36,747 nucleotides of DNA, taken from positions 1 through 36,747 of the forward strand of contig WOZO01000027.1 of the NCBI GenBank assembly GCA_011620315.1. The letters run 5' to 3'. Origin of the DNA: Sideroxydans sp. (GTDB taxonomy: Bacteria; Pseudomonadota; Gammaproteobacteria; Burkholderiales; Gallionellaceae). The stretch's first letter is position 1. Each line of letters begins with the position of its first letter. The position numbers were made by a program, and so were the translations under genes. The notes under the pieces were generated by a model, which saw nothing but the letters and a program-made list of their open reading frames with translations, was not told where the DNA came from and did not search any database. Of the stretch, positions 1,758 to 6,134 are shown in pieces.

Positions 1758-2387
1758 TCAGGATTCTGGATTCTGGATTCTGGATTCAGCTAATACCGCC
1801 GCTTCGTCTTTCTCTGAATCCTGAATCCCGAATCCCGAATCCTGTTCTTTAACAGCATAGATCGCGGGCAGATTGCGCCACGCGCCGTGGATGTCCATAC
1901 CGTAACCGAACACGAAGCGGTTCGGCAATGTCAGGCCGACGAAATCGGCGGCGATGGGCTTGGCGCGGCCGTGTTCCTTGTCGGCGAACACCGCACTGTA
2001 GAACGCTGTCGCACCCAGTTCCAGCACACGCTGCTTGATGGCCAGCATGGTCTCGCCTTCGTCGAGGATGTCGTCCAGCACCAGTACCACTTTACCGCGC
2101 ACATTCTCGCGCGGCGCGACCTTCCAGTGCAGCTGGCCGCCCTGCTTCTCGTTGCCGTAGCGCGAGACATGCAGATAATCGAAGTCGAGCGGAAAATTCA
2201 GCAGCGGCAGCAACTGCCCGCTGAACACCACCGCCCCACCCATCACCGACAGCACCAGCGGATGCTGGCCGGCCAGCTTGGCGTTGATCTCTTGCGCCAC
2301 ACGCTGCAAAGCGCGCTGCACCGCGTCGGCATCGTGCAGCAGTTCGGCTGCAGCCAGTATCTCTCTTGCGCGCTGGTCGGTCATCAT
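1758..2387 (-). CDS. hpt: Hypoxanthine-guanine phosphoribosyltransferase with repeat-derived C-terminal extension
   Basis: A purine-salvage enzyme that makes IMP or GMP from hypoxanthine or guanine and PRPP. The PRPP-binding motif [14 protein letters not shown] and the base-binding region (about FGYGMD) are present. The start is one of two adjacent ATGs (2387 or 2384) that overlap the TGA of the upstream exonuclease chimera, which implies translational coupling. The family core ends around the AIYAVKEQ segment. The last 27 or so residues ([10 protein letters not shown]... to ...RIQNPES) are encoded by a heptamer tandem repeat and its inverted partner and have no family counterpart. The natural stop has probably been overwritten by this repeat insertion. 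The core enzyme should still be functional. Confidence 0.9.
1759..1844. repeat. Inverted pair of heptamer tandem repeats
   Basis: The left arm (1759-1789) is four tandem GGATTCT-type heptamers. The right arm (1814-1844) is four GAATCCY-type heptamers. The arms are reverse complements at 28 of 31 positions, with the three mismatches spaced exactly seven bases apart, and enclose a 24-base loop. The whole element lies inside the 3' coding end of hpt and finishes at its stop codon, a few bases before the ribosome site of the next gene. There is no T-tract, so it is not a standard terminator. Confidence 0.9.
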
Positions 2388-2950
2388 GTCGGGAATCCTT
2401 CGCCGTTGTTTGCCAGCAGCGCCAGCAGTGCTGCCTCGTCCCACACCAAGACATTCAAAGCCTGCGCCTTTTCCAGCTTGCTGCCCGCTTCGGCACCGGC
2501 CACCACACAATCGGTTTTCTTCGACACGCTGCCCGCCACCTTCGCGCCCAGCGCTTCCAGTTTCGCTTTAGCTTCGTCTCGGCTCATGGTTGCGAGTATT
2601 CCTGTGAGTACAAAAGTGTTTCCCGACAGCGGCAGCACCTGATCACTGACGCCTGTATATTCGTCCCATTCCACACCACGGCGACGCAACGCATCGACGA
2701 CTTCGAGGTTGTGCGGCTCGGCAAAGAAGGCGCGCAAGCTTTGCGCCACGATGGGGCCGACCTCGGGCACTTGCTGCAAGGCTGCCTCATCGGCCTGTAT
2801 CAACCGCTCCAGCTTGCCGAAATGACGCGCCAGATTTTTCGCCGTCGCCTCGCCCACGTTGTGTATGCCCAGTGCGTAGACGAAGCGCGCCAGCGTGGTG
2901 TGCTTGTTCTTCTCGATGGCTTCCAGCAGGTTGGATGCAGACTTCCCGCC
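2384..2950 (-). repeat. Host-like copy of the ligA 3' end, now the tail of the exonuclease chimera
   Basis: This segment encodes the HhH and BRCT part of a LigA and is paralogous to 3942 to about 4510. The protein products align without gaps over about 175 residues at about 69 percent identity by my hand count. GC in two 60-base lines counted was 58 and 62 percent, like the surrounding chromosome. I infer that it is the original 3' end of the local ligA. Confidence 0.75.
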
Positions 2951-3502
2951 CAATGGATTAATTGGCGGATTGACGCGATTTATCCATGCTTCCAAATCCA
3001 ACTGGGACTCCCGCATTGCGGCGAGCAAGACGTGACCGGCAGCTTTTGCATCTTCCAAAGCATCATGATGCTTGAACTCATAACCAATTTTTATACAGAC
3101 ATCCTTGAGGCCATAACCTCGCTCAGCCAGGTCTTTCCATGTTTTGCGCACCACGCTGGTAGAGTCTAACCAAGTGGTTGAAATTGGACTGAGCCTGTAT
3201 TTTTCAAATGCACGTACAAGAGCATCTCGATCAAAGTGAGTATGAGCGTGATAAACACTAATGCCATTTCCCAAGTAACTCCTCAACACTTCTGCAACAT
3301 CCGGCAGTTTCGGCTGACCTTCCACCATTTCCGGCTCAATATGGTGTTTGGAAACATTAATCTCATTAAAATTTACTTCTGGATCAATAAGCGTTGACCA
3401 CTCACCGACAAGCTTTCCGTCAGCAAATTTCGCAATGCCAATCTGGCAAATCGAACTCCTATCTGAATTTGCGGTTTCAACATCAATTACGACAAAGCGC
3501 AT
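2384..3502 (-). CDS. Chimeric protein: DEDDh 3'-5' exonuclease fused to a LigA C-terminal tail (HhH + BRCT)
   Basis: A 372-residue protein. Residues 1 to about 180 are a DnaQ-like exonuclease with a full DEDDh set: D7, E9, D91, H146 and D151. From about residue 184 to the end it is the C-terminal part of an NAD-dependent DNA ligase: helix-hairpin-helix repeats (about 187-270) and a BRCT domain (about 290-365, with SGNTFVLTG and [11 protein letters not shown]). The tail is roughly two-thirds identical to the tail of the intact LigA encoded at 3942-6134. Stand-alone exonucleases of this family that I know of often end in their own short BRCT domain, so the ligase tail may have replaced it. The exonuclease half is AT-rich (38-40 percent GC in two lines counted), while the tail half is host-like (about 60 percent). 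A GGAG ribosome site lies 7 bases before the ATG. It has no adenylation domain, so it is not a ligase. Confidence 0.85.
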
Positions 3503-3523
3503 GAATTATCTCCCGACTTCAGC

Positions 3524-3889: not shown

Positions 3890-3945
3890 GATATGAAGTC
3901 ACGCAATACTTTTATATGTCCACCATGGTACGCAATTAGTTTCAT
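3886..3945 (-). CDS. 19-codon ORF bridging ligA and the 121-residue ORF
   Basis: Reads [19 protein letters not shown]. Its ATG overlaps the ligA TGA as ATGA, and its own TGA overlaps the next ATG as ATGA. The last LigA codons contain GGAGGG 5 bases before this ATG, a strong ribosome site, whereas the following 121-residue ORF has none. It most likely acts as a coupling leader that delivers ribosomes from ligA to the next gene. It could also be the N-terminal remnant of a longer frameshifted protein. Confidence 0.5.
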
Positions 3946-4970
3946 GTCTGCCCTCCGTACAAATGGTTTTCCAGCAATTGAAACAAACCTTGTTCATCCA
4001 TGACCGACACTCCCAATTCACGTGCCTTATCCAGCTTGCTGCCCGCCTCCGCCCCAGCCACCACATAATCTGTCTTCTTAGACACGCTACCCGCAACTTT
4101 CGCACCAAGCGCTTCTATTTTTGATTTTGCCTCGTCACGTGACATGGTGGGAAGTGTTCCCGTCAATACAAATGTCTTGCCGCTAAGCGGTAATGTATTA
4201 ACCGTCACACCCTCGTACTCTTCCCACTGAACGCCCGACATGCGCAACTGTTCGATCACTTGGCAGTTGTGCGATTCAGCAAAGAACGCAGCTATACTCC
4301 GAGCAACCACTGGCCCTACATCAGGCACCTGCTGTAGTAATGTCTCATCTGCTGCTTTGAGATTGTCCAGTGATCCGAAGTGACGCGCCAAATCTTTGGC
4401 CGTCGTCTCACCGACATTGCGGATACCTAGCGCATAGATAAGGCGCGCCAGCGTAGGCTGCTTGCTAAGCTCTATGGCTTTCAACAGATTTTTCACCGAC
4501 TGCTCGCGCACTCCTTCTAGATTGGCAAGAAAATCCATATCAAGCCGAAAAATATCCGCTGGCGTACCGACGATGCCGCCATCAACCAGTTGCTCCACCA
4601 GTTTTTCACCCAACTCTTCGATGTTCATTGCACGGCGGCCTGCAAAATGCATTAGGGCCTGCTTGCGCTGCGCGGCGCAGAACAAACCACCGGTGCAGCG
4701 CCAGTCAGCTTCCCCCTCTTCACGAACGATGTGGCTACCGCACACAGGACAATGACCGTGAAGAAATTTATACAGGTTGAATGGTTTTCTTTCTTTACGC
4801 TCTAACCTTTTTTTTCCTGTGCGAATAGGTTCGAAATTTCTTTTTTTCTTAAATTTTCTATTTTCCTTACGTTTTTCAGCTATCTCACGCGGCCTACTCG
4901 AAATTGATCTTTCTCTAGCCTTTCTACCTTTTGATGAAGATGCCAAAATTTTTTCCGCTTTCACAACGCC
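3942..4970 (-). repeat. AT-richer second copy of the ligA 3' end (probably imported)
   Basis: It encodes the basic linker, zinc finger, HhH and BRCT domains of the functional LigA. The part coding for HhH and BRCT (about 3942-4510) duplicates 2384-2950 in direct orientation. Composition shifts abruptly near 4970, inside the codons after the VVGVV segment, which I take as the outer junction of the imported block. The inner junction would be near 2940-2955. Confidence 0.65.
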
Positions 4971-6134
4971 GACCACTTCAGGGATCACGTCACCCGCGCG
5001 GCGCACGATCACGGTGTCGCCGATGTGCACATCCTTGCGGCGTATCTCTCCTTCGTTGTGCAGCGTGGCGTTAGAAACGGTAGTGCCACCGACGAACACG
5101 GGCTCCAGCTTGGCGACCGGCGTGAGTTTGCCGGTGCGGCCGACTTGTATCTCGATGTCACGCAGCACGGTGAGTTGCTCTTCCGCCGGATATTTGTGCG
5201 CCACCGCCCAGCGCGGTTCGCGCGAGACGAAGCCCAACTGCTTTTGCAGCGCGAGGCTGTTGACCTTGTACACCACGCCGTCGATATCGAACGGCAGCGC
5301 ATCGCGCTTGGCGGCGACCCGCTGGTGGAAATCGGCCAGCGCCTGCGCGCCTTGCACCACCGCGCGTTCATCGCACACCGGCAGGCCGAATGTTTGCAGC
5401 GCATCGAGGATACCGCTGTGCGTATCGGGCATTGTCCAACCCCGCACTTCGCCCAGTCCGTAGGCGTAGAACGACAGCGGTCGCTGCGCTGATAACTTTG
5501 GATCGAGTTGGCGGAGGGTACCCGCCGCGCCGTTGCGCGGATTGACCAGCGTGGGCAAGCCCTGCTCACGCTGCTTTTCGTTGTAGTGATTGAAGTCCTT
5601 GCGCGACATGTACACCTCGCCGCGCACTTCCAGCACTTCTGCTGTGCAATCCTGCAGACGCAGCGGGATGCAGTGGATGGTGCGGATGTTCTGCGTGACA
5701 TCCTCGCCGGTCTCGCCGTCACCGCGCGTGGCAGCCTGCACCAGCACGCCGCGCTCGTAGCGCAGGTTGATGGCGAGGCCGTCGAACTTGAGCTCGCAGG
5801 CGTATGCAATCTCGTTGCTCGTTTCCAGCGCGTTCTTCACGCGGGTGTCGAAATTGAAAGCACCGCTGGCCTCGGTGTCGGTCTCGGTGCGGATGGATAG
5901 CATGGGCACGGCATGCCTCACCGGCGCGAATCCATCCAGCACTTTGCCGCCTACGCGCTGCGTGGGCGAATCGGCGGTCAGCAGTTCGGGATGTTGCGTT
6001 TCGAGGGCTTGCAGTTCGCGGAACAGTTTGTCGTATTCCGCATCGGGGATGGTCGGCGCATCCTGCACGTAATAGGCATGGTTGTGCCGCTCGATCTCGG
6101 CGCGCAGTTGCGCTATTTGCTGCGGCACATCCAT
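3942..6134 (-). CDS. ligA: NAD-dependent DNA ligase with basic insertion and replaced 3' half
   Basis: A 730-residue protein that seals nicks in replication and repair; the family is usually about 670. Domains: Ia (about 1-70), adenylation domain with the KFDG motif (nucleophile K116), OB fold (about 320-390), zinc finger (C462, C465, C480, C486), HhH region (about 500-630) and BRCT (646-723). Between the OB fold and zinc finger, where about 16 residues are normal, there are about 70, of which 27 of 69 counted are Lys or Arg. DNA for residues 1-390 is GC-rich (67 percent in one line). From about residue 391 it is AT-richer (27 percent in the insertion, about 50 percent beyond). All key residues are present, so the enzyme should work. 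Its ATG overlaps the zipA stop (TGATG). Its stop overlaps a 19-codon ORF. Confidence 0.95.

Follow-up and report, generated by a model that had tools for sequence, protein, structure and literature searches.

Several described systems offer points of comparison for the locus treated here, a gene cassette lodged in the DNA ligase gene ligA of Sideroxydans sp. (Gallionellaceae). The locus lies in a stretch of 36,747 nucleotides (contig WOZO01000027.1 of assembly GCA_011620315.1), which as a whole is called the window. GAPS2 and its mobile islands are one such system. The recA mobile element (RME) of Vibrio cholerae is 32.8 kb in length, carries a phage integrase, 9-bp inverted repeats and a whole recA gene, and has one preferred site (PMC4405046). 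Core defence hotspots lie between core genes, and their transfer by homologous recombination of the conserved flanks, with no mobile-element scars, has been proposed (PMC10250203). Homology-facilitated illegitimate recombination is known from three competent species and from conjugation in Escherichia coli (PMC3240628). GAPS2 is also counted in a survey (PMC12935923).

Sequence comparison makes it rather probable that the window locus was produced by a single double crossover, which brought in an integrase-free cassette moving between Gallionellaceae by recombination inside ligA. The cassette consists of a gene for a small protein and an exonuclease gene. The incoming DNA completes the ligase, and part of the displaced ligA end is fused in frame to the exonuclease.

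A foreign tract inside ligA

On the minus strand the order is ligA, an open reading frame (ORF) of 121 amino acids (the small gene), a 372-amino acid ORF that fuses an exonuclease to the end of a ligase, and then neighbouring genes (Table 1). When LigA is searched against the genome that holds the window, there are two matching stretches, 3945-6134 and 2399-2944, of which the second is 67% identical to LigA residues 545-726. The direct-repeat families D1 and D2 are the same two ligA copies, with DNA identities of 74% and 72% and a spacing of 1558. Both results agree with an earlier sequence-only reading of this DNA, in which the ligA 3' end was seen twice in direct orientation. The end within the fusion is called copy A and the end that completes the ligase copy B. 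The guanine-plus-cytosine fraction is 0.436 in positions 3001-4000 and 0.499 in 4001-5000, against 0.60-0.64 in the two kilobases on either side, which bears out the AT-rich stretch.

Table 1. Features of the ligA locus, in window positions
Feature	Positions	Strand	Basis
ligA (P0002)	3942-6134	minus	all LigA domains
Native 5' part of ligA (adenylation and OB-fold domains)	4966-6134	minus	sliding identity, N-terminal tree
Lysine/arginine-rich, AT-rich linker insert in LigA	4752-4965	minus	upstream junction of foreign tract
Copy B, foreign ligA 3' end (zinc finger, HhH, BRCT) completing the ligase	3942-4751	minus	nearest G031
19-codon ORF between ligA and small gene	3886-3945	minus	read from sequence
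Small gene (P0003), 121 amino acids	3524-3889	minus	relatives found in other genomes
Exonuclease-ligA fusion (P0001), 372 amino acids	2384-3502	minus	single open frame
DEDDh-type exonuclease domain, without its own BRCT	2951-3502	minus	RNase_T, 65.4 bits
Copy A, HhH part, G138/G080-type, in frame with exonuclease	2610-2953	minus	protein identity, DNA tree
Copy A, BRCT part, native-type ligA 3' end, C-terminus of fusion	2384-2609	minus	DNA tree

The ligase is a mosaic. P0002 is a predicted full-length NAD-dependent DNA ligase, LigA, at 899 bits against PRK07956 (curated cut-off 369), with the adenylation, OB, zinc finger, HhH and BRCT domains all present. Along the 5' part, the genomes G022, G033, G018 or G016 were best in most sliding windows among the nine rows compared, at 0.83-0.94 DNA identity, with G138 and G080 close behind in places. 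In the N-terminal protein tree G022 stands nearest to the window, at 94% identity. The native type gives way near 4965, where the sequence-only reading had placed its upstream junction (near 4970). Past the zinc finger, copy B DNA has 0.79-0.94 identity to G031, a genome of the same genus. The copy B protein is 86% identical to that of G031 and at most 76% to that of any other of 158 family genomes.

In a search of 158 family genomes, the linker insert at the upstream junction has a DNA match in the window's own genome and in none of the remaining 157. Its final 14 residues are of a type shared by 27 of the 28 other-genus loci listed, G099 being the exception; these loci are the best matches to copy B and not a random sample. 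The usual linker in the window's genus reads ..MP..CPVC. The window and G015 depart from it, and the stretch is missing in G032. Smaller insertions at this linker are seen in some other family members, and the ligA gene of G015 (L020), where no cassette was seen, has a linker of the other-genus type.

The fusion protein P0001 has an RNase_T exonuclease domain (residues 4-156), an HHH_2 domain (206-269) and a BRCT domain (290-362) in one open frame. The exonuclease domain is 73% identical in amino acids to the complete exonuclease-BRCT protein of G031, and D7, E9, D91, H146 and D151, which we take to be the DEDDh motif, are all five present. At the joint, similarity to the exonuclease stops just past PPIN and similarity to ligA starts just before KSA, with the frame kept. 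Similarity to the ligA genes of G138, G080, G077 and G098 ends sharply there, near 2950. A structure prediction made from nine sequences, with a mean predicted local distance difference test score (pLDDT) of 78.6 and a predicted template modelling score (pTM) of 0.51, puts the joint at residues 180-187, in a linker of low confidence that separates domains with better predictions.

Copy A is itself composite. Its HhH part is 90% identical in amino acids to G138 and 86% to G080, which belong to another genus, and 58-66% to the window's own genus. From about 2600 on, copy A matches the window's own genus in the sliding comparison. Foreign DNA thus probably extends beyond the visible exonuclease/ligA joint to about 2600, with native sequence in the BRCT part of copy A only. 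The downstream junction proposed earlier, near 2945, probably does not mark the end of the foreign tract, as ligA from about 2953 to about 2610 is non-native and turns native again near 2600. The proposal that copy A is the displaced native end stands for the BRCT part and probably not for the HhH part, which is of the other genus's type. The wider idea is supported: the cassette supplied a working ligA 3' end, and a nuclease gained the former one as its tail. The ligase HhH-BRCT would here stand in for the lost BRCT of the exonuclease itself.

Phylogenetic trees give the same picture. The LigA protein set has 57 rows from selected loci (G060, G025 and G032 were omitted and G065 was not extracted); the DNA trees have 56 of these rows, without G909, and the N-terminal protein tree 55, without the copy A rows. 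On DNA, the HhH part of copy A groups with G138 and G080 at a support of 99, and its placement with six native rows is rejected (nominal p = 0.00037). The BRCT part groups with the six native ligA rows at a support of 98, and its placement with G138 and G080 is rejected (nominal p = 0.023). The copies B of the window and G031 group together at a support of 100 in both the HhH and the BRCT trees. A local tandem duplication of the ligA 3' end, with later divergence, would account for two ligA copies in direct orientation, and the placement of the two as sisters is not rejected at the protein level (p = 0.22). On DNA, however, copies A and B as sisters are rejected by approximately unbiased (AU) tests (p = 0.013 for HhH and 0.0085 for BRCT), and the three groupings just given also speak against it. 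Duplication is scarcely credible, and the earlier view that this is no recent tandem duplication withstood the test.

The locus in G031 has the same order. First comes ligA (L062 7135-9177), then a small-gene relative (9230-9595), a complete exonuclease-BRCT gene (9616-10485) and, from about 10482, the remnant of a native-type ligA 3' end. In an alignment of 1791 columns that runs from the zinc finger to the end of the exonuclease domain, the two loci are 82% identical in DNA. The boundaries differ on both sides. Upstream, G031 keeps a native-type linker and switches after the zinc finger, whereas the window switches before it. On the right, the G031 joint is at the exonuclease stop codon, which abuts native-type ligA where an HhH motif begins. 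Five native ligA genes were compared there, and their similarity ends sharply at this point; the window joint lies between exonuclease and HhH. As the boundaries differ on both sides, the comparison points to separate acquisitions in the two genomes.

The sequence-only reading had named a shared arrangement in all close relatives as something that would speak against it. Of 61 genomes searched, comprising the window's own and 60 relatives, two had another ligA 3' end next to a close exonuclease relative: the window's own and G031. A relative of the exonuclease domain with at least 60% identity is present in three of the 61 (the window's own, G031 and G026), and other matches have at most 32%. 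In G026 the small gene and an exonuclease-BRCT gene lie beside a gene that we take to be fadB-like. In G909 (L075) the end of ligA is directly followed by the small gene and an exonuclease-BRCT gene, and then by a presumably modA-like gene; a second ligA end was not found within 6.7 kb of this locus. The two ligA contigs of G909 (L075 and C6, each from position 1) have an exact overlap of 141 bases inside the BRCT. This looks like an assembly-graph fork just upstream of the cassette, through strain variation or a repeat. In the small-protein tree the three ligA-located cassettes form one group (support 89, an unstarred branch).

Mosaic ligA genes are also seen in G138 and G080 (L102 and L105), where no cassette was seen. 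Their N-terminal part is close to the window's genus, and their BRCT lies near it. The ligA 3' half may, by such comparisons, recombine often between genera of Gallionellaceae.

The three cassette pieces have low dN/dS. Between the window and G031, the synonymous divergence (dS) and the ratio of nonsynonymous to synonymous divergence (dN/dS) are 0.52 and 0.14 for ligA copy B, 0.71 and 0.14 for the small gene, and 0.88 and 0.18 for the exonuclease. The native ligA N-terminus has a dS of 1.23, above all cassette pieces. For the copy A domains against near relatives dN/dS is 0.03-0.13, although most of the divergence behind these values may predate the fusion. In the HhH part of copy A, unique residues number 8 against 1 for G138 (p = 0.04) and 9 against 3 for G080 (p = 0.15). 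The corresponding comparisons for the BRCT part (6:3, 5:3 and 4:1) are not significant.

Expression of the cassette may be tied to that of the ligase. The sequence-only reading counted two unknown ORFs between the ligA copies, beside the exonuclease. Relatives were found for one of these, the small gene, and between it and ligA sits an ORF of 19 codons. The start of this short ORF overlaps the ligA stop (ATGA) and its stop overlaps the start of the small gene (again ATGA). The overlaps are identical in G031. Since they occur at each step in both genomes, they suggest that translation of the small gene is coupled to that of ligA.

Origin of the tract

In the proposed sequence of events, a two-gene cassette (small protein and DEDDh-type exonuclease) would have become linked to a ligA 3' end in a Gallionellaceae-type lineage. 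A unit made up of the ligA 3' half, the small gene, the exonuclease and the HhH part of ligA would then have entered an ancestor of the window's strain and, through homologous recombination, taken the place of the central part of its ligA, with crossovers near 4965 (the end of the OB fold) and near 2600 (the start of the BRCT). The recipient ligase would stay whole because the incoming DNA completes it. With ligA sequence on both flanks of the cargo, the unit could move again by ordinary recombination, with no integrase. The cargo would be a nuclease module, probably with an enzymatic partner that needs a BRCT, and in the window the HhH-BRCT of the ligase would have replaced the partner's own. 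Mosaic identity, the DNA trees and the gene order in G031 all favour the earlier proposal that foreign DNA of the form ligA 3' half, small gene and exonuclease recombined into ligA. That both crossovers belong to one event, and by what route the DNA entered, we infer. ComEC is encoded in the genomes of the window and G031, but also in 10 of 14 control genomes, and gives weak support.

A single double crossover accounts for the window most economically in number of events. Its main rival is homology-facilitated illegitimate recombination, with a ligA-homologous end near 4965 and the exonuclease end joined without homology near 2950, the HhH part having been converted to the G138 type earlier. 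The sharpness of the window joint against the four ligA genes compared there would fit such a process, as would that of the G031 right joint against five native ligA genes, and the G138 and G080 genes provide examples of mosaic ligA without a cassette. The process itself has precedent in the species and crosses cited above. It requires one extra event for the window, however, and that the joints of each of the two genomes should fall within ligA. Sharp right joints are seen in the window and in G031, and in the window non-native ligA runs on past the joint to about 2600. We hold this explanation to be unlikely, though still a contender. An in-frame fusion that falls cleanly between domains is explained by neither an illegitimate joint nor a double crossover.

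The sequence-only reading drew a parallel with integrative elements that restore the 3' end of the gene they enter. A site-specific element of this kind, since deprived of its integrase, would explain why the target is completed by incoming DNA and its old part displaced, as with the RME (PMC4405046). Such elements have an integrase or transposase of their own and one fixed site. Here, no integrase was recognised in the tract, either in the ORF list or in family searches of the three main ORFs, as had been noted before. Only the small gene and the exonuclease are recognised between the ligA parts, and there is no additional gene of integrase size. Both boundaries differ between the window and G031. 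Repeats besides the ligA copies are short and scattered, among the 20 of 31 direct families and 25 of 42 inverted pairs listed. The parallel is not supported as to the use of one site, and an element of this type is very unlikely. The differing boundaries and the lack of a recognised integrase are the reason why the locus is read as homologous recombination inside ligA.

Other observations weigh against a single double crossover or weaken the evidence for it. No donor search found another genome with the whole fused arrangement. With copy B as the query there was no donor in the 158 family genomes, and with the HhH part of copy A none with the full arrangement; the exonuclease at E <= 1e-40 has matches in two of 399 genomes of the order, namely those of the window and of G026. 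Nor was the small gene found in G138 or G080 when the family genomes were searched. Since the ligA genes of G138 and G080 are themselves mosaic, a separate gene conversion at an earlier time could account for the HhH part of copy A. An insertion common to the window and G031, later altered by recombination, could also explain some of the difference in the G031 boundaries. At the protein level, AU tests of the HhH part (102 columns) give p values of 0.22-0.50. The groups used in the DNA tests were picked after the sliding comparison, contrary to the assumption of the test, which weakens their p values. The exonuclease has also changed unevenly. With G909 as the outgroup, 24 of its residues are unique to the window and 7 to G031 (p = 0.003), whereas unique residues in the small protein are 6 and 6; this contrast suggests that change was sped up in the gene that lost its BRCT. 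At 71 positions that six relatives share without variation, the window exonuclease has a different residue in 9. In leave-one-out counts, which omit L081 and L090, departures are 13/75 for G166, 9/71 for the window, 5/67 for L079, 2/64 for L077, 1/63 for each of G031 and G909, and 0/62 for G026. The faster change may be adaptive or mark the onset of decay.

Draft assemblies are the source of the loci. G031 and G909 have metagenome-assembled genome (MAG) in the titles of their records, and the window's genome is in 233 contigs. A chimeric assembly, which the draft state and the break of the G909 locus inside ligA at its 141-base overlap might suggest, is nevertheless highly improbable. The separate assembly of G031 has a diverged (82% in DNA) version of the same order, the frames are open across the joints, and native-type ligA is present on both sides of the tract.

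The small protein family and its partners

The small gene is found in eight of the 158 family genomes, the window's own included (the match in G136 is weak and has an internal stop), and in three of 369 genomes of the class, again with the window's own. A peptide-pattern scan of GTDB contigs found nine loci, and a search of viral contigs two. A tblastn search with P0003 gave one phage record and no plasmid record. The protein matched no Pfam, NCBIfam, PADLOC or PHROGs family, and its profile found no PDB sequence at E <= 1. The AlphaFold2 model, made from 12 sequences, has a mean pLDDT of 93.7, and its fold had no match with E below 2.6 in PDB or below 3.3 in BFVD. The small gene is, on these predictions, a new family with a confident predicted fold.

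At 17 of 19 distinct loci, a phage included, the small gene adjoins a gene whose product has a BRCT or BRCT-like end. The partner is an exonuclease at 11 loci (the window, G031, G909, G026, G166, G152, L077, L079, L081, L090 and G587) and TerB-like at six (L076, L080, G092, L089, G112 and phage PG1); in G589 and G136 neither type was found within the few kilobases examined. The TerB-like label is a weak one: DUF533, which we assume to be linked to TerB, matches L080 and L076 below its cut-off, and the G112 partner is typed solely by similarity to those of L076 and L080. Pfam BRCT is above its cut-off in L076, below it in PG1 and absent in L080. The C-terminal part of PRK06195 matches the BRCT-like end of all five TerB-like partners tested.

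One fadB-like locus is found in two genera with different partners, an exonuclease in G026 (L063 5569-9423) and a TerB-like protein in G112 (L083 4009-7606), and the small proteins of these two are 75% identical. On the small-protein tree, partner type requires five changes, two of them forced by starred branches, and shuffled labels require about the same number (5.1). The partner difference at a shared locus, together with the changes on the tree, suggests that the partner is exchangeable while the BRCT-type end is kept. In the window that end appears to come from ligA. The fadB-like locus is also a second case of a cassette shared at one locus.

In phage PG1 the small gene adjoins a gene for an S24-type repressor. 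The 181-amino acid PG1 protein annotated as 'NAD-dependent DNA ligase' (L091 5479-6024; OQ504958.1 22949-23494) is the TerB-like partner; it has the BRCT-like end alone in common with ligases, and belongs to phrog_3989, where the function is given as unknown.

A role for the cassette in anti-phage defence or phage competition is plausible, if tentative. It is the simplest reading of a small gene found in phage PG1 and two viral contigs and an exonuclease that matches a PADLOC candidate defence family. That candidate, PDC-S48, is matched by the window fusion and the exonucleases of G031 and G026 at 100-115 bits. The profile has 411 positions and matches P0001 at 104 bits in two stretches, the better being residues 2-174 on positions 5-177. 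Its matches to five TerB-like partners are weak (18-30 bits, positions about 207-378). The exonuclease of G031 is also matched by phrog_192. PRK06195, a family of exonucleases with a C-terminal BRCT, matches four of the exonucleases at 142-182 bits, below its cut-off of 373. An accessory role in DNA repair is the alternative.

Comparison with described systems

In the openly licensed literature, no description of the gene pair, of a ligA-borne cassette or of its mechanism was found, and the passages of PMC4615327 on target duplication and DNA ligase have nothing that bears on the ligA locus. We view the locus as recombination-driven gene transfer in a new form, with this gene pair as its cargo. 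It is a clear example from nature of recombination, apparently across genera, that put cargo into an essential gene without breaking it, and the displaced ligA end became part of a new fusion protein. With two related, differently bounded examples, it becomes testable whether housekeeping genes serve as integrase-free vehicles. The locus also exposes a small protein family that is absent from the four family libraries searched and is paired with exchangeable BRCT-type proteins in bacteria and phage.

Perhaps there is a whole class of mobile units that have no integrase and for which an essential gene is address and vehicle at once, although at present this is a speculative possibility. In such units, cargo flanked by ligA would cross genera by homologous recombination, rebuild the ligase each time and be expressed as an extension of ligA. 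The cargo would be a new two-gene module, with a small protein of new fold and an exchangeable effector-BRCT protein, and here it would have taken over the BRCT of the ligase.

Scores against the anti-phage protein GapS2 (NF047932, cut-off 330 bits) stay below the threshold, at 36 bits for P0002 and 16.5 for the L076 partner, and the family is not among the 25 of 31 families listed for P0001. PDC-S48, PRK06195 and phrog_192 represent the same exonuclease or exonuclease-BRCT type as the cassette. The PRK06195 family has a BRCT of its own, whereas the window protein carries the HhH-BRCT of LigA instead.

The RME resembles the present locus in being a mobile unit within a key gene of DNA metabolism; it splits the native gene and brings along a divergent version whose origin is a related lineage (PMC4405046). 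The window tract differs in its length of about 2.4 kb and in having no integrase seen; it supplies the 3' half only, its boundaries are variable, and the displaced end is in a new protein. The one homologous and one non-homologous joint of homology-facilitated illegitimate recombination fit G031 and, on one reading, the window. That process was described from laboratory crosses (PMC3240628), whereas the present loci are natural ones, and two genomes have their joints in the same essential gene. Core defence hotspots use conserved genes as flanks around a slot between genes (PMC10250203). In the window, the flank is the inside of a core gene.

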